Shown: positions 7,476 to 63,037 of the stretch, one piece after another | Layout of the letters: each line of letters opens with the position of its first letter | Position numbering within the stretch: position 1 is the stretch's first letter | NCBI RefSeq assembly: GCF_007289895.1 | Contig: NZ_CP041660.1 | Span: 4,030,001-4,094,000 of the forward strand | DNA length: 64,000 nucleotides | Source of the DNA: Catenovulum sediminis | GTDB lineage: Bacteria; Pseudomonadota; Gammaproteobacteria; Enterobacterales; Alteromonadaceae | Direction: 5' to 3' | The notes under the pieces: generated by a model | What the model was told of the DNA's origin: nothing | The model's database searches: none | Seen by the model: the letters and a program-made list of their open reading frames with translations, nothing else | Program-made: the position numbers and the translations under genes

Positions 7476-8066
7476 ATGCAAAAGTTACTTTCTTTATTTT
7501 TATTTTCTTTGTTGATTTGCCAGCCAGCACTGGCTAACAAGTTAGATACGCAAGAATCTAACTTATATCCCCGAGTAAAGTTTGAAACCACGATGGGCGA
7601 TATTATTGTTGAATTAAACCGAAGAAAAGCCCCTATAACCGTTGCCAACTTTTTAACTTATGTTGTAAAAGGCGAGTATAACGACACAGTATTTCACCGT
7701 GTCATCCCAAATTTTGTTGTCCAAGGCGGTGGATATGACGCTGAATATAATGAAAAAATGGTGGGAGAAGCTATTTTTAATGAAAGTGGTAATGGGCTAA
7801 CAAATGACCGGATGACAATTGCGATGGCACGCATGAGTGACCCACACTCGGCTGTACGTCAATTCTTTTTTAATATGCAAGATAATAACAACTTAAACCC
7901 AGGCCGGGACTGGGGTTACACAGTATTTGGCTATGTTGAATCGGGTGAAGAGGTGTTAGAAAAGATAGCGCAAGTCGAAACCCACTATAGTACTGATTTT
8001 GGTTCGGCAGATGTGCCAATTAACGCCATTTTAATAAAAACTGCAACTTTGTTACCGAGAAGCTAA
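7476..8066 (+). CDS. Periplasmic peptidyl-prolyl cis-trans isomerase, cyclophilin type
   Basis: A 196-residue cyclophilin that catalyses proline isomerisation during protein folding. The first 20 residues (MQKLLSLFLFSLLICQPALA) form a cleavable signal peptide, so the enzyme acts in the periplasm like PpiA. Core motifs are YNDTVFHRVIPNFVVQGGG, with the catalytic Arg in FHRV, and SAVRQFFFN. The start is supported by a strong CAGGAG ribosome binding site. It lies just after rlmG and may share its transcript. A second, FKBP-type isomerase is encoded at 24201-24626. Confidence 0.93.
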   Translation: MQKLLSLFLFSLLICQPALANKLDTQESNLYPRVKFETTMGDIIVELNRRKAPITVANFLTYVVKGEYNDTVFHRVIPNFVVQGGGYDAEYNEKMVGEAIFNESGNGLTNDRMTIAMARMSDPHSAVRQFFFNMQDNNNLNPGRDWGYTVFGYVESGEEVLEKIAQVETHYSTDFGSADVPINAILIKTATLLPRS

Positions 8067-50977: not shown

Positions 50978-51808
50978 ATGAATAAATTAATCCAACAAGT
51001 CGCCTTAGAAATAGAATATCGAGGGTATGCAGATAAAACCCGAGAAACCTATTGTCAGCATTTGCAGCAAATTGAAAATTATTTAGGTAAGCCGTTAGAC
51101 CAAACAACAGAGCAAGATTTAAATTGTTATTTTGCTAGCCCTGAAGTCCACAGATTATCGCGCTCAAGTGTGCTCATTAAAGTGAACAGTTTAAACTTCT
51201 TGTTTAAATATGTTCTTCATAAATCCTTTACCATTGATGTTGTGGTGCCTAAACAACGCCCGAAGCTACCTATATACTTAACAAGAGAAGAAATAAAGTG
51301 CGTCATACAACAGTGCACCGACTTGCGCATTAAAACCATGGTGATATTGACCTATGCTTGTGGTCTGAGATTAAGTGAGTTGACCCAAGTAAAAGTACAG
51401 AATATTGATGGCCAAAGAAAAACCATACTAATAGAGCGTGGAAAAGGCGGTAAATCAAGGTACGTCGTCGTGCCTGAAAGTGCCTTACAACAACTCAGGA
51501 TATACTGGAAAATGTATCATCCCAGTACATGGTTGTTTTATTCGTTACGTGATTTTACAACACCGATAGGCAAAACAACCTTCTCGAAAGCGCTACGTAG
51601 AGTGGCAAAAGAATTGGGCATGGAAAATAGATTAAGTGCCCATAAACTGCGTCATGCCTACGCTACACACCAACTAGAATCAGGCATGCCATTGCACCAG
51701 CTACAACATCAACTTGGACACAGTGATATAAAGACCACACAAACATATTTACACTGGTTACCAGAATTAGGTCACGGTGGCGTTGATTTACTGGCGAGTA
51801 TGAGGTGA
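50978..51808 (+). CDS. Tyrosine recombinase of an IS91-like element
   Basis: A 276-residue phage-integrase-type recombinase. The N-terminal SAM-like DNA-binding domain (YCQHLQQIENYLGKPLDQTT) precedes a catalytic domain with YACGLRLSELTQVKV (first Arg), SAHKLRHAYATHQLESG (HxLRH) and LGHSDIKTTQTYLHW (LGH plus the Tyr nucleophile). It is not an integron integrase: the IntI-specific extra helix is absent. A GGAGGT site precedes the ATG. The transposase gene follows after three bases, the arrangement seen in some two-gene IS91 relatives. Confidence 0.87.
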   Translation: MNKLIQQVALEIEYRGYADKTRETYCQHLQQIENYLGKPLDQTTEQDLNCYFASPEVHRLSRSSVLIKVNSLNFLFKYVLHKSFTIDVVVPKQRPKLPIYLTREEIKCVIQQCTDLRIKTMVILTYACGLRLSELTQVKVQNIDGQRKTILIERGKGGKSRYVVVPESALQQLRIYWKMYHPSTWLFYSLRDFTTPIGKTTFSKALRRVAKELGMENRLSAHKLRHAYATHQLESGMPLHQLQHQLGHSDIKTTQTYLHWLPELGHGGVDLLASMR

Positions 51809-51811
51809 ATT

Positions 51812-52897
51812 ATGAAACCACTTCATCTAGCTGACATCCTTAATCAAGGCTTAGCGGACTATCAGCAAACGCATAAAATGAGTGTGCAGCAAAAGCGGGT
51901 ATGCGACCATATTCAATCGTGCCGAACGGGCGAGCTTGGATATCAAAAGTGGCAATGTGACCAATGTGGGCATCAAACTGAAATTGGCTGTAGCTGCCGC
52001 GATAGACATTGCCCAAGATGTCAGGGTACAACCACTGAAGACTGGGTCGACAAGCAAAGCGAAAATTTATTGCCGTGCAGCTATTTTCATTTAGTCTTTA
52101 CCTTGCCACATGAGCTCAACCTGATTGCACAATATAACGCCAAGCCTCTGTATCAAAGTCTATTTAAAGCCGTGTGGCAAACCTTAAACAAATTTGCCAA
52201 CAACCGGCAGCACGGGCAATTGGGTATGACCTGTGTGTTACACACTTGGGGCCAAAACTTAAGTCAGCATATTCACTTGCACTGTTTAATACCAGCTGGG
52301 AGTTTAAGTACAAAGCAACAATGGCAAAGCGTTAATAAAAATTACCTTTACCCAGTGAAAGCATTATCCACAGTCTTTAAAGGCAAAATGTTGGCAGAGC
52401 TAAAAGCTCAGAATGTGAATTTAAACAGCTTAAACATTCCACAAAAATGGTGTGTGTACGCCAAACCCTGCTTAAGCCACAGCCAGCAATTGCTAAGTTA
52501 TCTGGCGAGGTATACCCGAAAAGGCGTGATGTCAGAATCAAGGTTGGTTAAACATACAACCCACTCAGTGAGTTTTAAATACAAAGACTATCGGGATAAT
52601 AACCAAAATAAAGTCATGACGCTTGATACAGAGGAATTTATCCGGCGGTATTTACAACACATACTGCCTAAAGGCTTAATGCGAGTACGCCATTATGGAT
52701 TTTTAGCCAATGCTTGTCGCAGGCGTAAAGTGAAGCTAATCAAAGCACAATGTAAAACAGGCAAACCCTGTACAACAAAGCCAAAATCAGACAAAAAAAT
52801 GCATTGGCCGTGCACAGAGTGTCAGGTAGGTGAGCTAAAGCTGGTGAGTATTTTATTACCAAGTCGAAAGTTAATAGAGCCGGTACTAACTGGCTGA
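51812..52897 (+). CDS. IS91-family HUH transposase
   Basis: A 361-residue rolling-circle transposase. The N-terminal zinc-finger cysteines are in CDQCGHQTEIGCSCRDRHCP and CQGTT; the HUH nuclease histidines in HIHLHCLIPAG; and the tyrosines used for strand cleavage in YLARYTRKGVM. The C-terminal region ends with a CxxC pair (WPCTECQVGELKLVSI). All family hallmarks are intact, so the protein may be active. A fragment of a divergent relative lies at 62285-62502. Confidence 0.9.
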   Translation: MKPLHLADILNQGLADYQQTHKMSVQQKRVCDHIQSCRTGELGYQKWQCDQCGHQTEIGCSCRDRHCPRCQGTTTEDWVDKQSENLLPCSYFHLVFTLPHELNLIAQYNAKPLYQSLFKAVWQTLNKFANNRQHGQLGMTCVLHTWGQNLSQHIHLHCLIPAGSLSTKQQWQSVNKNYLYPVKALSTVFKGKMLAELKAQNVNLNSLNIPQKWCVYAKPCLSHSQQLLSYLARYTRKGVMSESRLVKHTTHSVSFKYKDYRDNNQNKVMTLDTEEFIRRYLQHILPKGLMRVRHYGFLANACRRRKVKLIKAQCKTGKPCTTKPKSDKKMHWPCTECQVGELKLVSILLPSRKLIEPVLTG

Positions 52898-53777: not shown

Positions 53778-53831
53778 ATTTAACGCTTATGGCACGGGCG
53801 AGGAACGAGCCCCGTGCCATACTTGTTACAA
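53778..53831 (-). repeat. attC recombination site after the NUDIX cassette
   Basis: On the minus strand GTAACAAG leads into ATGGCACGGG, a small loop and CCCGTGCCAT, ending AGCGTTAAAT; GTTAAAT fits GTTRRRY exactly. The stop codon of the NUDIX gene lies inside the left box, as is usual for cassettes. Length is 54 bp. Confidence 0.8.
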
Positions 53832-54257
53832 GTTTACCCTTTGGCACAGTTCCCAAAGAGCGATTTTATTTGAATCATATCTCAGCAATGTATCCGCAGT
53901 TACGGTGGAAACCCATCGCAGCTCAGAATGCTCTTCAGAATTAACGGCAGTTCCAGTTACTTCAGTGGCGAAAGCAAATTCAGGGATGACATAAACGTTT
54001 CCACCCCAATGCTCATGTCCCTTATAGAAAATTTTAGGCAGCATAACTTTACTATCTAACTGCAACCAATTAGTACCGATCATGCCAGATTCTTCACTTA
54101 GTTCACGCTTAGCAGCTTCAATCGGACTTTCTTGATCTTCACCGCCGCCTGATATTGCCTGCCATGACCCATCGTCGGACCGCTGACCAATAAGCACTTC
54201 AATCTCGTTACCAGCTCGTCGATAGGGGAAAACAATAACTTGGAATGGTGCTCTCAT
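53826..54257 (-). CDS. NUDIX hydrolase (gene cassette)
   Basis: A 143-residue NUDIX enzyme, which hydrolyses nucleoside diphosphates linked to another moiety. The NUDIX box is complete: G-x5-E-x7-REUxEExGU in GGGEDQESPIEAAK followed by RELSEESGMI. The substrate is open; the sequence resembles dATP pyrophosphohydrolase-like members (RAPFQVIVFPYRR). As a cassette gene it ends inside an attC. Its start is 15 bases from the end of intron module A, which leaves no room for an ordinary promoter of its own. Confidence 0.9.
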   Translation of the reverse strand: MRAPFQVIVFPYRRAGNEIEVLIGQRSDDGSWQAISGGGEDQESPIEAAKRELSEESGMIGTNWLQLDSKVMLPKIFYKGHEHWGGNVYVIPEFAFATEVTGTAVNSEEHSELRWVSTVTADTLLRYDSNKIALWELCQRVNL

Positions 54258-54271
54258 ACTTCCTACTTGGT

Positions 54272-54696
54272 CATGGTAGAACGGCCCATTACTGAGCCGC
54301 CCCGATACAGATCCGGACGTGCTCTGATGTTAAAAATAGCACCGCATCCGGCTCTTCATTAATATCATTGCCCGTGTAAAACACAAAGCCCCCTAATACC
54401 AATTTACCGAGATCAGCCGTTTGCTGACCCGTAGTGGTTTAATTTGAAAATATCCTAGCATATCTTTAAACCCATGCCAGTTAAAACTCTGCGTTTGGGG
54501 GCGTCTATTTAACTTAGACTCACCTTGAAAAAAGTCAGCCATGACGACAAACCTATTTATTTCCTTATATAAGCAGAACTCAACACCGGGCTTGTGACGT
54601 GCAAGGATGCACTAATGCCGTGAACTGCAGGATGCAGAGAAACGGTCCAACAATAGGATTAAGTTGCGGCTGCGCGCAACATATCCTTATTTATTA
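54272..54696 (-). repeat. Group II intron deletion module A
   Basis: A ~425-base repeat, read on the minus strand: a stem-loop (AAATAAGGATAT...ATCCTTATT arms with inner GTTGCG/CGCAAC), ~150 bases of intron-like 5' sequence, a deleted reverse-transcriptase ORF, and a 3' part with a domain-V-like hairpin (GAGCCGGATGCGG...CGTCCGGATC) ending GTTCTACCATGA. In this copy the residual ORF is open (54542 to 54393): MADFFQGESKLNRRPQTQSF then NWHGFKDMLGYFQIKPLRVS, joining the RT start directly to its C-terminus. The same module occurs at 55944, 57531 and 58646. Confidence 0.85.
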
Positions 54697-55001
54697 TACG
54701 TCGAATACGCTAATTGTAAGTTATATGGAGACACATGTAAGGTGCTTTGGGTTTGCCTCATTTGCCAAAGGTCAAATGCATTCTGAAGCTTTAACCAATG
54801 ATCGGCAGAAGGCTTTCCAAAAGCAAGCTCCAACCTTACCGCCATCTCTGGAGTAATTGAGCCTTTTGCATTTAAAACTTTTGAAAGTGTCTTGCGACTT
54901 ACATCTAAATGTTTCGCTACATCTGTTATCGTGACTCCCATAGGCTCAATTACTAATTCTTTTAGAATTTCGCCTGGGTGTGCTGGATTATGCATAGACA
55001 T
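54687..55001 (-). CDS. higA: HigA-family antitoxin (gene cassette)
   Basis: A 104-residue antitoxin with a helix-turn-helix: [20 protein letters not shown], then [20 protein letters not shown]. It neutralises HigB and represses its own operon in known systems. The start overlaps the higB stop (TAATG), and the toxin-first order is typical of HigBA. The last codons (TYNK) and stop lie inside the stem-loop of module A, so the module arrived at, or replaced, the natural 3' end. Confidence 0.9.
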
Positions 55002-55279
55002 TAGTGATAATCCTCATAATTTACTATTTCAACATCCCGTCCGGTGAAACGGTAGGTGATTCGCCAATTACCGCTTACTCGAACAGACCATATTTCTTTT
55101 CTATCGCCTTTAAGTTTATGCATAAATAAGCCCGGTAAGTCCATATCGTCAGGAACTTCAGCCTGATCTAAATTAGCTAAAATCAAACGAATTTTCTTTT
55201 CATGCTTTTTTTGTATTCCGGCGGTTTTGCCAGTTGCGTAAAACTTTTCTAGGCCTTTATGAATGAAACTTTTAATCAT
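55001..55279 (-). CDS. higB: HigB-family toxin, RelE/ParE superfamily (gene cassette)
   Basis: A 92-residue mRNA-cleaving toxin of the HigB type: [39 protein letters not shown] and [20 protein letters not shown]. Conserved basic and aromatic residues of the ribosome-dependent RNase site are present, ending in DYH. Toxin-antitoxin pairs are common stabilising cassettes in large arrays. The gene is followed immediately by higA. Confidence 0.92.
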
Positions 55280-55479
55280 AAAGAAAGTGTAACCCTACAG
55301 GTGTCAAAAAGCCAGTAAATTGCTAAGACGTATAACGAGACTGTAGAATAACTCCTACAGCCAAATTGAATTAAAAAACGAGTTCCTGTAATTAACTCTA
55401 AGCGTTTTTAAAGCATTAGGTAATGCATTTGGAACCCATAACACAGGCTGTTTTTCTTAAAAATGAATAATTCTACAGC
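55280..55479. other. ORF-less stretch between cassettes
   Basis: About 200 bases between higB and the attC at 55480. It contains a GTATAAC/GTTATAC box at 55330-55336 and a short hairpin CTGTAG/CTACAG near 55341-55361. It may be a small cassette without a gene plus the higBA promoter region. No coding sequence is visible. Confidence 0.45.
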
Positions 55480-55559
55480 CTCAACGCCGCCAACACAGGC
55501 CGAGCGTAGCGAGGTCCTGCCCCAGCTTCGCTGGGGCGAAGTGCTTGGCATTGTTACAT
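55480..55559 (-). repeat. attC recombination site after the lipoprotein cassette
   Basis: Minus strand: ATGTAACAATGCC at the left, central palindromes CCCCAGCG/CGCTGGGG and GAGCGTAG-type repeats, then GTTGGCGGCGTTGAGG on the right. The TAA stop of the gene at 55554 lies in the left box. Length 80 bp and layout match an attC. Confidence 0.78.
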
Positions 55560-55922
55560 GCTTTCATGAACCAAATCCCAAACGAGCTCCATGATTACAG
55601 ATGAGGCGCTATCGGGATGCATATCTTGTTCTCCAGACATAGCTGCGCATGATTTCCTGATGGGTGAACCTTCACTCCATAACCCGTAACTATTCCTGAT
55701 TCCCATTCCCCAACCTAAATGAAACTGTATGAGATCTTCTTTTTCTGTTTCTTGTAGCGTATTGATGCTTTCTTGATCTAGGCTTTTATAGATATCCAAC
55801 GCTGCTTCTTTGCAAGTAAGTGGTGTCATTGTGTCAGTTTCGCTTTCCTTGCTACTTTCTGGAACGGAACTACAACTGGACAATACCAAACAAATAAATA
55901 CAGTTATAAGTAGTTTATACAT
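55554..55922 (-). CDS. Small lipoprotein (gene cassette), unknown function
   Basis: A 122-residue protein starting MYKLLITVFICLVLSSCSSV with a lipobox LSSC; it should be lipid-anchored. The mature part is acidic with two further cysteines (LTCKEAAL and RKSCAAMSG), which could form a disulfide, and an aromatic FHLGWGMGIRNSYGLW segment. No family is recognised. A longer frame reaches into intron module B (55961), but AAGGG seven bases before 55922 supports the later start. The gene ends in an attC. Confidence 0.72.
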   Translation of the reverse strand: MYKLLITVFICLVLSSCSSVPESSKESETDTMTPLTCKEAALDIYKSLDQESINTLQETEKEDLIQFHLGWGMGIRNSYGLWSEGSPIRKSCAAMSGEQDMHPDSASSVIMELVWDLVHESM

Positions 55923-55943
55923 CTCAATTCCCTTAGGCATGGT

Positions 55944-56365
55944 CATGATAGAACGACCCATTACTGAGCAGCCTCCATACAGATCCGGACGTGCCCTGAT
56001 TTTGAAAATAGCACCGCATCCGGCTCTTCATTAATATCATTGCCCGTGTAAAACACAAAGCCCCCTAATACCAATCTACCGCTATCAACCGTTTGCTGAC
56101 CCGTAGTGGTTTAATTTGAAAATACCCTAGCATATCTTTAAACCCATGCCAGTTAAAACTCTGCGTTTGGGGCGTCTATTTAACTTAGGCTCACCTTGAA
56201 AAAGTCAACCATAACGACAAACCTATTTATTTCCTTATATAAGCAGAACTCAACACCGGGCTTGTGACGTGCAAGGATGCGCTAATGCCGTGACTGCAGG
56301 ATGCAGAGAAACGGTCCAACAATAGGATTAAGTTGCGGCTTCGCGCAACATATCCTTATTTATTA
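55944..56365 (-). repeat. Group II intron deletion module B
   Basis: A second copy of the module, with the same deletion joint inside the reverse-transcriptase ORF as module A. The residual ORF is out of frame: one T is missing after ATGGTTGAC, and another base is missing in the G-run near 56170. The right end (ATCCTTATTTATTA) lies three bases before the stop codon of the HNH gene. Confidence 0.85.
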
Positions 56366-56368
56366 GCT

Positions 56369-57064
56369 TCACTTGCACCACTGCCTGTGATACTCGATAG
56401 CCGAAACATCCAAATTGTGACTTTCCTTTACAATAAGCTGCCTACCCAATTGGGGCACAGTTAGATCATTTTCTATATATACACCACCGATATCGAAAAG
56501 CTTATGGTGGTTTGGACACAAACATAAGATGTTTTCAATTGTATCTACACCATTATGAGGCTCACCTAAAGCTTTAATGTGAGCCGCTTCAGCATACCAA
56601 TAGTCACCAGCCTCCAATCGAATACCACACATTTGGCACTTGTACTCATACAATTCCTTAATTTTTAAAGGAAGCCCTTGATCTCTTATTATCTTGTTGG
56701 TTTCGTAACTTTTTCTTTTTGGTTTGGAATCTTGCAGTAAGTAGCTTTCTATCTCGGGGTCTATTGAATAGTTAAGCTCCCTCAATCTACGTACGGCAGT
56801 TCTTAACTCATCGGTAGTAAAAAGCACCCTCCACTCAGGCTTAATGACATTTGCCTCGAGTGAAAGATCTAATCGATTGTGGAGAACTAATCTAGTTAAC
56901 CCTTCGGATATTCTATTTGGGCCTACCAATAAATCCCTTGCTGTTTGCAGTGCTCCTCGCTCACTAACCATCGATCGAAATAATGGAGCCTTGTAACCAG
57001 TCTCTTCTCTAGAAATTCTATGTTGCTCTAGAATATGGGTTTCAAAATCTTGCTCGAGGCTCAT
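56369..57064 (-). CDS. HNH endonuclease (gene cassette)
   Basis: A 231-residue protein with a C-terminal HNH nuclease domain. Zinc-binding pairs are YKCQMCG and CLCPNH; the HNH core is AEAAHIKALGEPHNGVD followed by ENILCLCPNHHKLFD. The N-terminal ~110 residues (FETHILEQHRISREETGYKA and following) are helical and probably bind DNA or a partner. Such single nucleases are frequent in restriction/defence contexts, but a role is not proven. It is preceded by an attC and ends at module B. Confidence 0.87.
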   Translation of the reverse strand: MSLEQDFETHILEQHRISREETGYKAPLFRSMVSERGALQTARDLLVGPNRISEGLTRLVLHNRLDLSLEANVIKPEWRVLFTTDELRTAVRRLRELNYSIDPEIESYLLQDSKPKRKSYETNKIIRDQGLPLKIKELYEYKCQMCGIRLEAGDYWYAEAAHIKALGEPHNGVDTIENILCLCPNHHKLFDIGGVYIENDLTVPQLGRQLIVKESHNLDVSAIEYHRQWCK

Positions 57065-57073
57065 AATTTCTCC

Positions 57074-57146
57074 TTGAACGCCGCCATAAGCGGCCAGATA
57101 ATAGTTGGCTAAAATTGTGAGGAACGAACACAGCCAACTGTTATAT
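57074..57146 (-). repeat. attC recombination site upstream of the HNH cassette
   Basis: Minus strand: ATATAACAGTTGGCT at the left pairs with AGCCAACTATTA, followed by CGCTTATGGCGGCGTTCAAG. A second copy of the left-box motif, GACATATAACAG, lies 25 bases upstream, overlapping the stop codon at 57168. Length 73 bp. Confidence 0.72.
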
Positions 57147-57167
57147 GTCCGTTACTTCATGGCCCTG

Positions 57168-57521
57168 TTATATGTCGGCTTTAAATTTGGCTTTATTTTT
57201 AATCAAACCTAAAGCTGAACATAAAGCAATTATTACAGCTGCACCGTAAGACGCAATTATATAAGGTGTTCCTTGTTCTTGGATTATCCCAACGCCAATA
57301 TAAGGATCACTAAGAGTCTCATATGCAGCGTAAGCAAAAAACACCGTAAACGATATACCAAGAACTACAAATCCTTTACGCCATATTGTTAAAAAATAAA
57401 CAGGAACGCCAAATAGAAACCCTTGAAGCCACAACTCAGGAATTGTTGCCATTTTATCTGATACTTCAGCAACAGTACTAAAAGAGATAAACAGTATTGC
57501 AAATGTTAAGAGTTTATTCAT
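57168..57521 (-). CDS. Small membrane protein (gene cassette), unknown function
   Basis: A 117-residue protein with an N-terminal signal-like helix (MNKLLTFAILFISFSTVAEV) and three further hydrophobic segments (LWLQGFLFGVPVYFLTIW, VVLGISFTVFFAYAAY, IIASYGAAVIIALCSALGL). No family is recognised. The frame extends upstream into intron module C (to 57548), but the ATG at 57521 is the natural start, placed ten bases after the module end. The gene is followed by an attC. Confidence 0.7.
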   Translation of the reverse strand: MNKLLTFAILFISFSTVAEVSDKMATIPELWLQGFLFGVPVYFLTIWRKGFVVLGISFTVFFAYAAYETLSDPYIGVGIIQEQGTPYIIASYGAAVIIALCSALGLIKNKAKFKADI

Positions 57522-57530
57522 AGGCATAGT

Positions 57531-57955
57531 CATGGTAGAACGACCCATTACTGAACCGCCCCCATACAGATCCGGACGTACCCTGATGTTGAAAATAGCA
57601 CCGCATCCGGCTCTTCATTAATATCATTGCCCGTGTAATACACAAAGCCGCCAAATACCAATCTACTGTAATCAGCCGCTTGCTGACCCGTAGTGGTTTA
57701 ATTTGAAAATATCCTAGCATATCTTTAAACCCATGCCAGTTAAAACTCTGCGTTTGGGGGCTCCTATTTAACTTAGGCTCACCTTGAAAAAGTCAACCAT
57801 AACGACAAACCTATTTATTTCCTTATATAAGCAGAACTCAACACCGGGCTTGTGACGTGCAAGGATGCACTAATGCCGTGACTGCAGGATGCAGAGAAAT
57901 GGTCCAACAAATAAGGATTAAGTTGCGGCTGCGCGCAACATATCCTTATTTATTA
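57531..57955 (-). repeat. Group II intron deletion module C
   Basis: A third copy of the module with the same deletion joint. The RT remainder is frameshifted (five T instead of six after ATGGTTGAC). The C-terminal part (FKDMLGYFQIKPLRVSKRLI) and the domain-V-like hairpin are kept. It lies between the HEPN-motif gene and the small membrane gene at 57168. Confidence 0.85.
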
Positions 57956-57962
57956 TATTGCA

Positions 57963-58616
57963 TTAACTGAAATGCTTTAAGTACCTGTAATACAATTCTT
58001 TTTCACCACCTGAAAGAGATACATTTAAAGTGCCAGCTTCTAAGCATTCCAGAGCTTTCTGTGCGACCGACGAGGCGAGATCTATAATTTTATTTGGATT
58101 TATTAAAGTAGTCATCTCTGGTTTATAGTTCTCAATATTTCCATCCCAACTCACAGATGAATATTCAACTAAAGTTTGTATTTCTCTATCAAATCTAAAA
58201 TTAAAGCTGGGCTTGTTACTATGCTGTGCAATTGCCATTAAACTTGCGTTATGAAGAAATGAATTACGTAATGCATATACTGCTTTTGTATCCATGTGGC
58301 CTTCGGGGTAATCAGCAAAATAGTATAAGGCTTTTAAAATTGGACTAGACGCTGAATTAGAAAACTCATTCATATCTGTACGCGCGTAACAAAATCCGAT
58401 TTGTTCTATTGCTGCAAAAGCACCAACAACAGCTACGAAGTTTTTAGAATACTCCATATGTTTAGCGTGATTAATTTCTTGCAGAGTAATCGGTAAGATT
58501 GATTTCAGGTGGCCGTCTTTAAGTTGGTAAAAAGAAGCTCCGCCTAGATGTGCGTATGCTAACTCTAAAAGAGATAACTCTGTGAGGGTCTTATTTTTCC
58601 ATTCACTGATATCCAA
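57963..58616 (-). CDS. Cassette protein with a HEPN-like RNase motif
   Basis: A 217-residue, mostly helical soluble protein that I do not recognise as a named family. It contains ALRNSFLHNASL (about residues 116-127), an R-N-x3-H arrangement matching the R-x4-6-H active-site motif of HEPN ribonucleases found in toxins and antiviral systems. The motif alone is short, and a chance match is possible. No partner nucleotidyltransferase is adjacent. It lies between intron modules C and D. Confidence 0.55.
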   Translation of the reverse strand: MDISEWKNKTLTELSLLELAYAHLGGASFYQLKDGHLKSILPITLQEINHAKHMEYSKNFVAVVGAFAAIEQIGFCYARTDMNEFSNSASSPILKALYYFADYPEGHMDTKAVYALRNSFLHNASLMAIAQHSNKPSFNFRFDREIQTLVEYSSVSWDGNIENYKPEMTTLINPNKIIDLASSVAQKALECLEAGTLNVSLSGGEKELYYRYLKHFS

Positions 58617-58645
58617 TTAACACTCCATACTAGCTTTGCAATAGT

Positions 58646-59066
58646 CATGGTAGAACGACCCATTACTGAGCCGCCCCCATACAGATCCGGACGTGCCCTA
58701 ATGTTGAAAATAGCACCGCATCCGGCTCTTCATTAATATCATTGCCCGTGTAAAACACAAAGCCCCCTAATACCAATCTGCTGTAATCAGCCGCTTGCTG
58801 ACCCGTAGTGGTTTAATTTGAAAATATCCTAGCATATCTTTAAACCCATGCCAGTTAAAACTCTGCGTTTGGGGGCGTCTATTTAACTTAGGCTCACCTT
58901 GAAAAAGTCAACCATAACGACAAACCTATTTATTTCCTTATATAAGCAGAACTCAACACCGGGCTTGTGACGTGCAAGGATGCACTAATGCCGTGACTGC
59001 AGGATGCAGAGAAATGGTCCAACAAATAAGGATATACGGCTGCGCGCAACATATCCTTATTTATTA
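58646..59066 (-). repeat. Group II intron deletion module D
   Basis: A fourth copy with the same internal deletion and a frameshifted RT remainder. The stem-loop differs from A-C: the left inner arm is shortened (AAGGATATACGGCTGCGCGC on the plus strand), making the outer arms a perfect AATAAGGATAT/ATATCCTTATT inverted repeat. Its right end contains the stop codon of the gene at 59064. Confidence 0.85.
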
Positions 59067-59480
59067 GGTTTGCTGTAGCTTTATCTTTTTGAAGACGCTA
59101 AAATCAATTCCGACAATGCTCTCAGGCTTAGAGAGCAAATAATTTTGTTTTTTATCAGGGTCATATTTTACTATCTGGTCCGACTCAGTTCTTCTTCCCG
59201 TTAACCGAATGTTATTAATCCACTCATTAAAAGAATCATTATCCTTTAAAAATAAGTCGTAGTCTTTCTGTTTTAAGTGAACCCATGTGTAATATTGAAA
59301 GGCACTTTGCTCGCATAGGATGTGAGCGACTATGTAATTATTAGTCTCGTCAGCAGTTAACTTGAAATAATTGGCATCTACGTATTCCAAATCATAATTA
59401 AATGGAGATAAGTTGTATTTCCGTTTGCCAAATAATTTCTGGAAGATCGACTTCACGTAACTCAAACACATACTCTTCAT
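59064..59480 (-). CDS. Cassette protein of unknown function
   Basis: A 138-residue soluble protein, aromatic- and charge-rich (SPFNYDLEYVDANYFKL, FQYYTWVHLKQKDYDLFL). There is no signal peptide, membrane helix or recognised motif. It starts four bases after a well-formed cassette boundary box (GTTAGGT, 59485-59491 on the minus strand), which supports it as a real cassette gene. Its stop codon is formed by the stem-loop of module D. Confidence 0.6.
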   Translation of the reverse strand: MKSMCLSYVKSIFQKLFGKRKYNLSPFNYDLEYVDANYFKLTADETNNYIVAHILCEQSAFQYYTWVHLKQKDYDLFLKDNDSFNEWINNIRLTGRRTESDQIVKYDPDKKQNYLLSKPESIVGIDFSVFKKIKLQQT

Positions 59481-59515
59481 TGAAACCTAACGCTTAGATA
59501 ATGAGCAAAGATTGC

Positions 59516-60287
59516 CATGGCAGAACGACCCATTGCTGGGCCGCCCCCATACAGATCCGGACGTACCCTAATGTTGAAAACAGCACCGCATCCGGCTCTT
59601 CATTAATATCATTGCCCGTGTAATACACAAAGCCCCCTAATACCAATCTACTGTAATCAGCCGCTTGCTGACCCGTAGTGGTTTAATTTGAAAATATCCT
59701 AGCATATCTTTAAACCCATGCCAATTAAAACTCTGCCTTTGGGGGCGTCTATTTAACCATTTGTATAAGGTGTGCAGCACAAAGTTATATATCCTGCTGA
59801 TGCTTTTACTATTGTCTGGTAGACCAAAATGATTTTGAATGCCAACCAGTTTTCGTTTTAACATCGGCATGATTATATTCAGTCGCTTAGAGCGGTTTTG
59901 CTCTACCCATTGATAAAGTTCATTCAGCATAGTTTTATGCTTTTTCCGACTCGTGACCCGTTTTAATCTTGGCTCGCCTTGATGGTCTTTACCCCAGTAA
60001 CATTCAAATCCCAGAAAATTAATGCTTTTATCTGGATGACCGCTTGGATGAAAACGGCTGAATCTCTTGAGGTGCGTTTTGTCTTTTGCCAGTTCTAGAT
60101 TAAATTTTCTTAATCTATTGCCCAGTATCCGAGAAAACGTTTGTGCATCTTGTCGATATTGAAATGCGGTGACAAAGTCATCCGCATATCTTATAAACAT
60201 GGCTCTGCCCTTCATTCGCGGTTTTACTTTCTTTTCAAACCAGCGGTCTAGTGCGTAGTGCAGGTAGATATTTGCCAGTATTGGGGG
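59516..60287 (-). pseudogene. 3' part of a group II intron with truncated reverse transcriptase
   Basis: The reverse frame up to ~60287 and down to 59637 encodes the C-terminal half of a group II intron RT/maturase: PILANIYLHYALDRWFEKKV, the catalytic FIRYADDFVTAF, NFLGFECYWG and a maturase segment ending PLRVSKRLITVDWY. A domain-V-like hairpin lies at 59552-59598 and the intron ends near 59516. It is the same intron as modules A-D but retains the RT portion they lost. The N-terminal RT half is absent; at ~60287 the sequence switches to another intron on the opposite strand. Downstream, GCGTTAGGT (59485-59493) looks like the right half of the attC it entered. Confidence 0.85.
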
Positions 60288-60289
60288 AT

Positions 60290-60706
60290 CTCAATGACCC
60301 TACAAATTCATAAACTGACGCAATACTTACGCGGATGGGGATACTATTACCTAATAGCCAATGCTTATCAATTAACGGTGGATTTAGATCACTGGATCCG
60401 TCGTAGGATAAGAATGCGCTACTGGCGGCAATGGAGAAAACCTCGCACTAAAGTACGCAGTTTAATGAAACTGGGGGTTAGCGAGCCCCTCGCCATTGCA
60501 TGTGGTATCACCAGTAAAGGCCCTTGTAGAAGTTCGAAAACAAAAGGAATTAACATTGCGCTAGGCAATGACTATTTGGCTTCACAAGGTTTAGTGTCAC
60601 TGAGAGATATTTGGATTAATATTCATTACGGGAGATGAACCGCCCATTGCGGAGCCGCACGATGGGTGGTGTGGGGGCTGGAGATTAGAAACCTCCGGCT
60701 ACCCGA
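60290..60706 (+). pseudogene. 3' part of a second, different group II intron
   Basis: The plus frame to 60638 encodes a maturase C-terminus of another intron type: LTQYLRGWGYYYLIANAYQL, WIRRRIRMRYWRQWRKPRTK, and KLGVSEPLAIACGITSKGPC. It is followed by a domain-V-like hairpin (ACCGCCCAT/ATGGGTGGT, 60636-60670) and a 3' end CTACCCGAT near 60706. The catalytic RT domain is missing. It faces the minus-strand intron head-to-head. Its 3' end lies in the last codons of the membrane-protein gene at 60699, so it inserted antisense to that gene. Confidence 0.8.
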
Positions 60707-61112
60707 TTATGAGCTTTTTGCGAACACGATTGCTGCCCAACCAAAAGAATAACGCGCCCGCGGCCCCGTACGCTACAAACAAACCACGAAAGTATAAGTT
60801 GGCAGTATCTATTAAAGCGTAAAGAAAACCCGCAGTGCCACCAATCGTGATTATTAATACCGGGTTGACCCAATCCAGCTTTCGTAGCACATAATAGATA
60901 GGCAAACCAATGATTGCACAGAAAACTGCCATATATAGAAAACTGAAAATTCCAAATAGCAGGTAAGATCCAATAAACGTACTAAATATAGCGCCGAAGC
61001 CGTTGTGACTAAATTCCTCAATAGCCGCCCAGATAGCTACCACCCCGCTCACCAACATCGGAGAAAGAAAGCTAAATAAATAACCCGATCGCATTTCGTT
61101 ACCATAGTTCAT
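60699..61112 (-). CDS. Four-helix membrane protein (gene cassette), 3' end altered by an intron
   Basis: A protein of 137 residues starting MNYGNEMRSGYLFSFLSPML with four predicted membrane helices. A longer frame starts at 61184, but those codons lie in the attC of the preceding cassette, so the ATG at 61112 is preferred. The final residues (IIG) and stop codon come from the antisense intron that ends at 60706, so the native C-terminus is probably lost. No family is recognised. Confidence 0.62.
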   Translation of the reverse strand: MNYGNEMRSGYLFSFLSPMLVSGVVAIWAAIEEFSHNGFGAIFSTFIGSYLLFGIFSFLYMAVFCAIIGLPIYYVLRKLDWVNPVLIITIGGTAGFLYALIDTANLYFRGLFVAYGAAGALFFWLGSNRVRKKLIIG

Positions 61113-61125
61113 GGTAGCTATAGCT

Positions 61126-61224
61126 CTAACGCCCCGCCTAACAAACGTAAAATGCTTGGCTAAATTAGGAACGAAGTGACGCAAGCCAAGCTTTTTACGT
61201 CCTTGGTTGAGGCGCTTGTTATAC
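61126..61224 (-). repeat. attC recombination site, best-preserved in the array
   Basis: Minus strand: GTATAACAAGCGCCTCAA on the left and GTTAGGCGGGGCGTTAG on the right, with inner arms ACGTAAAAAGCTTGGCT and AGCCAAGCATTTTACGT pairing almost perfectly around a TTCGTTCC-containing loop. Length 99 bp. The layout is that of a classical integron attC of the Vibrio-repeat type. Confidence 0.88.
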
Positions 61225-61978: not shown

Positions 61979-62036
61979 GTATAACATTTTAGTATTCATG
62001 CACACGTAGTTTGTGTGAATGAATCATTTGTTGAAC
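61979..62036 (-). repeat. attC-like site at the end of the IS91 tail (right copy)
   Basis: The same hairpin as at 53147-53204, here on the minus strand. The R'' box GTTCAAC and inner arms are identical. The right box reads ATGTTATAC, closer to the boxes of other sites in the array than the left copy (GCGTTTTAT). It marks the upstream border of the first cassette. Confidence 0.55.
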
Positions 62037-62502
62037 GGGCAAACAACACGGTTGTCTGGTTTGATTTATGCTATAGGAATTTGCTTTTTTAAGCTCAGTT
62101 GGCATGACAGGTAATCTCCTTGTTGTTAGCATTTCATCAATCCATTTAACTTGAGTTTGAGCTTTGAATTAACGGTAATTTAAGCCAATTTAGCCATTAT
62201 TTGCAACTTTATTTTTTAGGCTCAGTAAGGTCTAACCTAACTCGACGGGCTTTGTTTTTTATTGGTTTTATTGCCTTAAAAATTTCAGCCTGTTAATACC
62301 GGCTCTATAAACTTTCGGCTTGGCAATAAAATACTGACCAGTTTAAGTTCGCCTAATTTGCAATTAGTGCAGGGCCAATACTTTTCTTTGTCTGGCTTTG
62401 GTTTTACTGTGCTGGTTTTCTCTGTTTTCTCTGTTTTGCTTTGAGCTTTAATTAGCTTCACTTTAAGCCTGCGGCAAGCATTCGCTAAAAACCCATAATG
62501 GC
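61985..62502 (-). mobile_element. Inverted, truncated copy of the IS91-like element
   Basis: Reads in the opposite orientation to the element at 50890-53200. It holds the last ~70 codons of a transposase (stop at 62285-62287; NACRRLKVKLIKAQSKTEK, WPCTNCKLGELKLVSILLPS) followed by the same tail. The coding part differs clearly from the left copy, including an extra TEKTEK repeat, whereas the last ~125 bases of the tail are identical. The upstream part of the transposase is missing, the break being at ~62502. Confidence 0.85.
61989..62105 (-). CDS. Second copy of the 38-codon ORF in the IS91-like tail
   Basis: Identical over its whole length to the ORF at 53078-53194, including the AAGGAG site. 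It is shown separately because the flanking transposase remnant has diverged, which makes the exact identity of this part notable. Whether it is translated is unknown. Confidence 0.45.
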   Translation of the reverse strand: MPTELKKANSYSINQTRQPCCLPVQQMIHSHKLRVHEY

Positions 62503-62532
62503 AGCATTTTCAATCTTTATTGTTCGCCTACA

Positions 62533-62692
62533 TTTAGCTGGTTTTACCATGGAATATTTCCTAAACTGATTCACATCGCACCACTTGAGCGATTTTTGAC
62601 GGCAAGTTTGGGGGTTTTCAAATGAAATATCTGATTTACTTACCCAATTGGCGGGTATTGATGCATTTAAAGCACACAGGGTAAAGTTTATT
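62533..62692 (+). pseudogene. Deleted copy of the doxX-like gene
   Basis: About 115 bases match 53258-53375 closely (SWFYHGIFPKLIHIAPLERF), with an added G in the run before FSNEI that shifts the frame. After LAGI the sequence jumps to the very end of the gene (LKHTG stop), losing roughly 200 bases. The following AAAGTTTATTATGCCAATA matches the left copy too, then runs on into the tautomerase gene. Confidence 0.8.
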
Positions 62693-63037
62693 ATGCCAAT
62701 AGCTCACTGTTTAATTGCGCCTGCGCTTCAAAAAAAAGTGGACAACACAACGGATTTAATAAACTTGTGGGTTTTGCACTCTGGCATCCCCCAGGCCGAA
62801 TCCGAAATGACGGTTAACATTACCCATAGCAATATTCAAATTGGCAAAGGTTATGCCGTTATGGCGTCTTTGTTATTGCCTTCACTGTGGTCTAAAGAAA
62901 ATATATCAGCCCTACAGTTGGGTTTGGCAAGCGCATTGTCAGATTATTATTCACTACCCTCTAAGCAGGTTTTTGTTACTACAAGCATTATTGAGTCTGG
63001 TTTGGTTGTTGAAAATAACCAAGAGGTAAAATGGTGA
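62693..63037 (+). CDS. Tautomerase-superfamily (MIF/4-OT-like) protein
   Basis: A 114-residue protein beginning MPIAHCLIAP, with Pro at position 2, the catalytic residue of tautomerases after Met removal. The length suits a 5-carboxymethyl-2-hydroxymuconate isomerase or MIF-like fold (LINLWVLHSGIPQAESEMTV, KQVFVTTSIIESGLVVENNQ). The start at 62693 is preferred to the upstream in-frame TTG at 62648, which would extend through the doxX remnant. A stump of the same gene (MPI codons) is left at 53603-53611, showing that this pair was duplicated. Confidence 0.7.
   Translation: MPIAHCLIAPALQKKVDNTTDLINLWVLHSGIPQAESEMTVNITHSNIQIGKGYAVMASLLLPSLWSKENISALQLGLASALSDYYSLPSKQVFVTTSIIESGLVVENNQEVKW

Follow-up and report, generated by a model that had tools for sequence, protein, structure and literature searches.

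Chimeric modules in a Catenovulum integron array as probable scars of attC sites shared by an IS91-like element and a group II intron

Along the minus strand of a 64,000-nucleotide stretch of the Catenovulum sediminis genome (contig NZ_CP041660.1, positions 4,030,001 to 4,094,000; hereafter the window), an integron cassette array runs from ~62.0 kb to 53.8 kb, and four modules of about 425 bases sit at junctions of its cassettes. Each module joins the outer end of an IS91-like element to the 3' end of a group II intron. With a probability of about 0.7, the modules are scars that were left where an IS91-like element and an intron had come to occupy one attC site, the interior was deleted and the resulting joint was spread by recombination. 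What a sequence-only reading of the same DNA had taken for a mobile mini-intron becomes in that case a readable instance of integron array decay and freezing.

The modules themselves had been delineated correctly. Module A (54270..54696), B (55942..56365), C (57529..57955) and D (58644..59066), all on the minus strand, are 94-100% identical to the query 58640-59070 (E 3.6e-186 to 1.3e-225), and the single deletion joint ascribed to them was recovered: it reads ..AAG|TTAAATAGACGC exactly in A, B and D, save for one C missing after the joint in B, and AAG|TTAAATAGGAGC in C, where the bases following the joint are altered. The form of this joint in C. adriaticum is ..GTCTAG|GTTAAATAG... Altogether the common joint occurs in eight junctions, namely the four of the window, three in array L031 of the same genome and one in C. 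adriaticum, and two of the three copies in L031 carry a further internal deletion common to both. As the joint is shared, the deleted form multiplied after the deletion, as had been proposed. A run of C directly follows the joint in six of the seven own-genome copies (one C fewer in B; lacking in L031b) and in a longer intron remnant of the window, and is absent from the full-length intron; both this run and a longer loop of domain V (D5) recur in some other intron copies. The residual frame of 49 codons noticed earlier in module A is indeed open there, as in the C. adriaticum copy; the remaining six copies with the common joint have it interrupted, in B, C and D after 10 codons. Searches with the module query returned at least 30 matches at E <=0.001 on both contigs of the own genome, with 40 of 49 candidates scored. 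For relatives, which include Catenovulum agarivorans DS-2, Gayadomonas joobiniege and C. adriaticum (NZ_CP109966.1, NZ_CP109967.1), 5 candidates per genome were scored and counts are lower bounds; two of 72,556 plasmid records, both of C. adriaticum, contain the module.

The first ~180 bases of the modules, including ATGGCTGACTTTTTTCAAGG (54514-54696 in module A), are the outer end of an IS91-family element. This part is also found without the intron; there it continues for ~400 bases and leads into a transposase of the IS91 family, encoded on the opposite strand. The fullest IS91-like element examined, in locus L091 of C. adriaticum, encodes a tyrosine recombinase and an IS91 transposase of the Y2 type (NF033538, 248.6 bits against a cut-off of 125), the C-terminal part of which may be lost, as the match covers profile positions 2-252 of 356. 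The 5' half had previously been described as intron-like sequence leading into the first codons of an RT (reverse transcriptase) frame. This assignment has to be abandoned: ATGGCTGAC.., which was taken for the RT start, belongs to the IS91-like element, the intron 5' end in the own genome is GTGCGACAAGC.. and the full RT frame (L032:4840-6180) has another N-terminus. Viewed against the mechanism of the IS91/ISCR family, the likeness lies in the Y2 transposase on the element that gives half of the module; the modules differ in having one outer end only and fall outside the family as defined by a transposase together with both ends. Module bases 57-105 (for example window 58962-59010), within the IS91-like end, have matches among short repeats that are dispersed in a number of other genera of the family, partly in tandem with 51-base spacing (G047 contig 19).

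The last ~244-245 bases of each module (54270-54513 in A) are a group II intron end, comprising the end of the RT frame, D5, domain VI (D6) and the 3' end CCATGAC. A full-length copy of the same intron family is present in the own genome at L032:4327-6291 (G000 contig 1, ~3.21 Mb), which starts with GTGCGAC, ends with CCATGAC, encodes an RT/maturase of 446 aa (350 bits) and matches the Rfam families group-II-D1D4-6 with 111 bits and Intron_gpII with 41.4 bits. The domain-V-like 3' hairpin noted earlier in the modules lies in a D5-D6-like end that scores 27.7-34.3 bits over the full Intron_gpII model (E 0.00063-0.026), under the 40-bit threshold of that family, and the apical loop of D5 exceeds that of the full-length copy by 12 nt. 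The idea of an RT-deleted group II intron was right about the 3' end carried by the modules, but not about the remainder: the 5' half is IS91-like, and the other intron parts were not found. No D1D4 family (domains I to IV, D1-D4) matched in window 53800-61200 at E <=1 or in the whole window at gathering threshold, while the same search was positive in L032, L031 and L091, that is, for full-length introns and introns without an open reading frame (ORF-less) of the genus. Neither a GUGCG/GUGYG 5' end nor a loop like the exon-binding site EBS1 was found in the modules; both are present in the full-length copy and in two of three ORF-less copies, the third having a disrupted loop.

Both elements are found on one attC in C. 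adriaticum, where L091 11423-8267 reads gene, IS91-like element, attC stem, 760-nt ORF-less intron and next gene, the stem between the elements being ..AAGGCGTTA with the IS91-like element read from its far end. This junction probably preserves the arrangement before collapse. An empty site is provided by the HigBA cassette of genome G002 (93% identical), which ends with GACGTATAACAAG.. within an intact attC, so that GACGTATAA|CAAG..attC in G002 corresponds to GACGTATAA|TAAATAAGG in the window. The left ends of IS91-like elements read GTCCAA|CAAG in L091 and L093 and GTTCAA|CAAA in L032, which, together with the empty site, places the insertion between TAA and CAAG (CAAA in L032) of the R'' box.

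The intron uses the opposite half of attC. All five exact-match intron 5' ends in Catenovulum loci follow an attC, judged by eye, that ends in ..GCGTTA, and the insertion lies in the R' box, GCGTTA|GTGCG, with the intron oriented like the cassettes. Four of six distinct introns of other genera, with overlapping loci counted once, likewise stand after an attC-like stem (G064 L136, G067 L115, G067 L137 and G212), the remaining two after a shortened AACAAGCGTTA (G064 L108) and after the end of a miniature inverted-repeat transposable element (MITE; G105, from another family of the order). An aligned domain-I loop UAACGC, which from the anatomy of group II introns we take to be EBS1, is complementary to GCGTTA, the six exon bases 5' of the intron. 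Of the 12 aligned rows, which are not independent as they include two G064 and two G067 copies, 8 contain the complement; it reaches seven bases in G067 and G064 L136, and in G212 the exon GCGTTG faces the loop CAACGC, a compensatory change. The exceptions are L031 with a loop insertion, L090, which has diverged there, G105 after the MITE end and L032c, the 5' end of which is missing. On these sequences the intron appears to find the R' box by UAACGC pairing in domain I, a targeting rule for an attC-seeking group II intron that is testable and comes with a natural compensatory variant.

How frequently such neighbours collapse can be read from the IS91-like ends in the fetched loci. In a tally of 27 made by hand, 13 are followed by the intron 3' end without a recognised attC in between, one has attC and intron intact and 13 are without intron; the IS91-like pieces L096, L033 and L038 did not fit the pattern and were left untallied. 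Twelve of the 13 fused junctions are direct joints, and L091 5291-4604 has ~280 bases of other sequence between the two parts. Because eight of the 13 carry the common joint and the other five (L034, L035, L090, L093 and L091 5291-4604) differ from it and from one another, the endpoints of deletion are variable and a single event seems to underlie the common joint. Beside the eight same-joint copies no attC was recognised in 45 nt upstream by eye and in 90 nt downstream by motif, checks made without an attC model, and GCGTT is absent within 90 nt downstream of all eight, which argues against insertion of the modules as units into attC.

These observations are consistent with an integron array in which a number of elements strike attC, each at its own part of the site. 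In R'' an IS91-family element with tyrosine recombinase and Y2 transposase inserts between TAA and CAAG; in R' a group II intron inserts after GCGTTA, in gene orientation and guided by the UAACGC loop as putative EBS1. Both on one attC would yield the order gene, IS91-like element, attC stem, intron, gene. Elements that recognise one attC half each would in this manner meet at one site. A deletion between their outer ends would subsequently remove the transposase, the attC, the intron core and most of the RT, so that the IS91-like outer ~180 bases would be joined to the intron's last ~245 bases. Crossing-over or gene conversion among the abundant repeats may then have carried one such scar joint to at least eight junctions in two species. 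As the scar is without a recognisable attC, the deletion that took away the recombination site would have welded two cassettes together for the integrase.

That the joint spread by homologous recombination or conversion is suggested by the shared joint itself, by mosaic alleles and by unrelated flanks. Among 28 upstream flanks three similar pairs were found, a HigA pair at 73% upstream of window A and L031b, a 92-bp stretch and a 49-bp stretch, and none among 22 downstream flanks. The 28 flanks correspond to 28 hairpin-pattern matches and include L039_6232, which is not an IS91-like end and stands outside the tally of 27, and the downstream comparison covers 22 of at least 24 ends, as the intron 3'-end pattern missed window module A and the longer copy. 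In the eight same-joint copies incompatibility affects 64 of the 171 informative site pairs, and a permutation test modelled on the pairwise homoplasy index (PHI) shows better agreement between adjacent sites than after shuffling (p 0.007; L034, the joint of which differs, is outside this test). Mosaicism is most visible in L031a, which in its IS91-like part has 5/180 differences to L031c as against 13/168 to L031b, and shares the internal deletion and the 3'-most alleles with L031b. In the tree of IS91-like halves A and the C. adriaticum copy fall outside a clade (96/91) that unites six own-genome copies; in that of the intron halves the own-genome copies are weakly grouped (69/84) and the C. 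adriaticum copy lies among ordinary introns. Crossing-over or conversion among repeats is the likeliest route of spread, with movement as a unit by an IS91-like transposase as the main rival.

Several points weigh against scars spread by recombination. The absence of attC was judged by eye and with short motifs; two of the eight copies have AACAAG, though not GCGTT, within 90 nt downstream, and the C. adriaticum copy has a GCGTT among the 45 nt that precede it. Despite differing internal deletions (L031a, L031b, L034), the 3' ends coincide exactly with the intron terminus, which would equally fit a unit whose two ends are both functional. The PHI-like test was a custom script applied to 19 sites in 8 sequences, and the trees are poorly supported. 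The intron half of L031a is equally far from L031b (14/175) and L031c (15/175), so that its link to L031b rests on the shared internal deletion and the 3'-most alleles and the mosaic case is weaker. Gene conversion is inferred, the IS91-like insertion point is deduced from one empty-site comparison and three left ends, and the fullest IS91-like transposase may be truncated.

The rival just named would make the module a non-autonomous IS91-like unit that is moved in trans by the transposase of a fuller element, its IS91-like end being the replication origin and the intron 3' end the terminator. It draws on the retention of both outer ends in all eight same-joint copies, including the internally deleted ones, on flanks that are almost all unrelated and on IS91-like copies with transposase frames in the genus. 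Yet the other end of the element (GCCGCATAGCGGCTTCGTCCAA) was not seen in the modules, which stop on their 3' side at the intron end, just as ordinary introns of the family do, and insertion into attC should leave an attC beside the modules, where none was recognised; the unit is unlikely. More improbable still is a joint that did not spread at all but arose time and again, by independent deletions at attC sites occupied by both elements. Deletions between outer ends are frequent, as the other joints in five of the 13 fused junctions attest, but the common joint (..GTCTAG|GTTAAATAG) has by eye almost no microhomology, and the run of C after it, in six of seven own-genome copies and the longer copy, is absent from the full-length intron.

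The sequence-only reading had left a choice between movement in trans and copying together with cassettes, and neither fares well. Copying within larger cassette duplications, for which the HigA pair before window A and L031b at 73% can be cited, is very improbable and is contradicted for the copies examined: flanks that ought to be identical are almost all unrelated, with no similar pair downstream and, upstream, two of the three pairs limited to short stretches. The mini-intron mobilised in trans by retrohoming has in its favour a 3' half that is intron with D5-D6 and a full-length RT encoded in the genome. No group II core was found in the modules by a method positive elsewhere, however, nor the GUGCG 5' end or an EBS1-like loop, the D5 apical loop is enlarged and the anatomy of the IS91-like 5' half contradicts it, which makes it the least credible of these explanations. 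Retrohoming of a truncated intron as sole origin was rejected as well, as it leaves one joint in eight junctions unexplained. A circularly permuted group II intron (PMC8637638) was discarded because D1-D4 matches were not seen after the modules in the window. The module-start hairpin is, by eye, without an R''/R' pair and was dismissed as an attC, and a joint of RT-internal origin via CAAGGCGAGCC near L032:5835 was taken as coincidental, because the C. adriaticum joint reads ..GTCTAG|GTTAAATAG.

Beyond the scars themselves, attC may serve as a landing pad for at least four kinds of elements, the IS91-like element in R'', the same-orientation intron in R', an inverted second intron in R'' and a MITE in R'. 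Collision products would then exchange attC for a site of homologous recombination, parts of the array would pass from integrase to RecA control and genes between scars would become exchangeable, a tentative and rather doubtful generalisation.

Movement in trans is better sought among the ORF-less introns at attC sites, L032:7424-8184 (761 nt), L031:10993-11767 (775 nt) and L091:9027-8268 (760 nt), which carry the 5' end and D1-D4 and no RT, are 89-96% identical to each other and stand at different attC sites. Their RF02005 matches score 107.7 (L032), 99.8 (L031) and 106.7 bits (L091), and the domain-I loop of the L031 copy is disrupted. All three correspond to ORF-less group II introns with complete D1-D4 and D5-D6, although the Intron_gpII scores are 39.7 bits in L032 and 30.9 bits in L031, both <40, and D5-D6 of L091 is not listed at gathering threshold. 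ORF-less group II introns are reportedly moved in trans in Thermosynechococcus; the 760-775-nt copies resemble that pattern, whereas the window modules differ, as no D1-D4 was found in them. These copies, not the window modules, are candidates for trans movement by the full-length L032 RT and could be used to study trans-mobilisation in the same genomes.

The longer copy of the window (59514..60285, minus), which consists of a C-terminal RT frame (59637-60215) and the intron 3' end with a weak D5 match (RF04357 21.4 bits, E 0.42), had been regarded as showing what the modules have lost. It is not their plain parent but a different fusion, its 5' side being joined to the inverted 3' part of a second group II intron (60285..60708, plus, in opposite orientation; maturase domain GIIM 46.6 bits), and no attC was recognised between the two. 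In C. agarivorans (L161) ~15 bases like the inverted 3' end of the second intron follow HigBA exactly at R''. A fuller relative of the second intron is found on the minus strand of L031 (5446-5610 and 4409-5089; D1D4-3 133 bits, maturase frame 226 aa). The longer copy seems, from the arrangement of its parts, to be built on the same plan, with an element of the R'' side joined to the intron of the R' side and the attC lost.

Group IIB introns just after attC have been reported in integrons and in clusters of attC sites lacking integron integrases (CALINs), UHB.I2 among them in cassette orientation, as have the 5'-truncated 3'-end fragments H.ha.F1 and H.ha.F2 in a CALIN near attC-like hairpins; that report names Ps.tu.I1 of Pseudoalteromonas tunicata as the closest intron-encoded protein, describes the exon conservation of UHB.I2 as poor and suggests that truncated copies arise from incomplete reverse transcription (PMC7923331). 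Compared with these, the introns described here have a GCGTTA site with a pairing loop and compensatory change as well as ORF-less copies, and the truncated copies are fused with an IS91-like end, one joint recurring among them. Group IIC-attC introns, as treated in PMC7923331, target attC in integrons and CALINs on the bottom strand of R'', opposite to the cassettes, at TTGT/T. The same-orientation intron inserts differently, at R' after GCGTTA, and is not of the IIC-attC kind by its insertion; the inverted second intron at 60285-60708 looks more like that arrangement. Neighbouring cassettes fused through attC loss are known (PMC4670013), whereas in the present case a chimeric scar, met again at many junctions, has taken the place of attC. 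In titles and the beginnings of abstracts, with most subscription journals outside the search, no description of IS91-type insertion into attC (R'') or of chimeric scars was found, which is weak evidence of novelty, and no paper was found that combines Catenovulum and integron.

The modules in the window lie, as had been noted, at junctions of a cassette array, whose genes, all on the minus strand, include a NUDIX hydrolase (53826..54257), a HigA-type antitoxin (107.8 bits) with a toxin frame (54687..55279; weak Txe/YoeB match of 19.6 bits, cut-off 51.8), the homologue of which in G002 has retained its attC intact in the corresponding position, and an HNH nuclease (56369..57064). The gene at 59067-59480 was found in the own genome only, one of 60 genomes searched. 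An intact-looking attC (57078..57146, minus; 84% over 69 nt to the L091 attC) separates the gene at 57168-57548 from the HNH gene, and a second attC (55483..55559, minus), recognised by eye, has a MITE-like repeat in its R' box (55338-55482); both were missed by the strict scanner, which picked up the attC at 61124..61224 (minus). The simple scanner missed several plain attCs and gave 10 matches on two strands of a 20 kb control, and was used for single sites.

The MITE-like repeat, with ends GAGRCTGTAGAA .. TTCTACAGTCTC, lies by eye inside attC R' boxes (GCGTT|GAG..CTC|GTTA) and would by the same judgement be a further type of attC-targeting element; besides window 55338-55482 (minus) it occurs in L031 at ~12400 and 7580-7740 and in L107 before the intron 5' end. 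Among 16 matches to integron integrase a single one exceeds the cut-off, with 472.6 bits; it is encoded on G000 contig 1 at 3205535-3206482 (minus) and adjoins the array in L032, ~0.88 Mb from the window array. A different IS91-like element with tyrosine recombinase and transposase, at window 50978-52897 (+), and its inverted partial copy at 61980-62700 (98% over 155 nt) bracket the cassette array, and a relative is also located upstream of array L031 (1198-2282).

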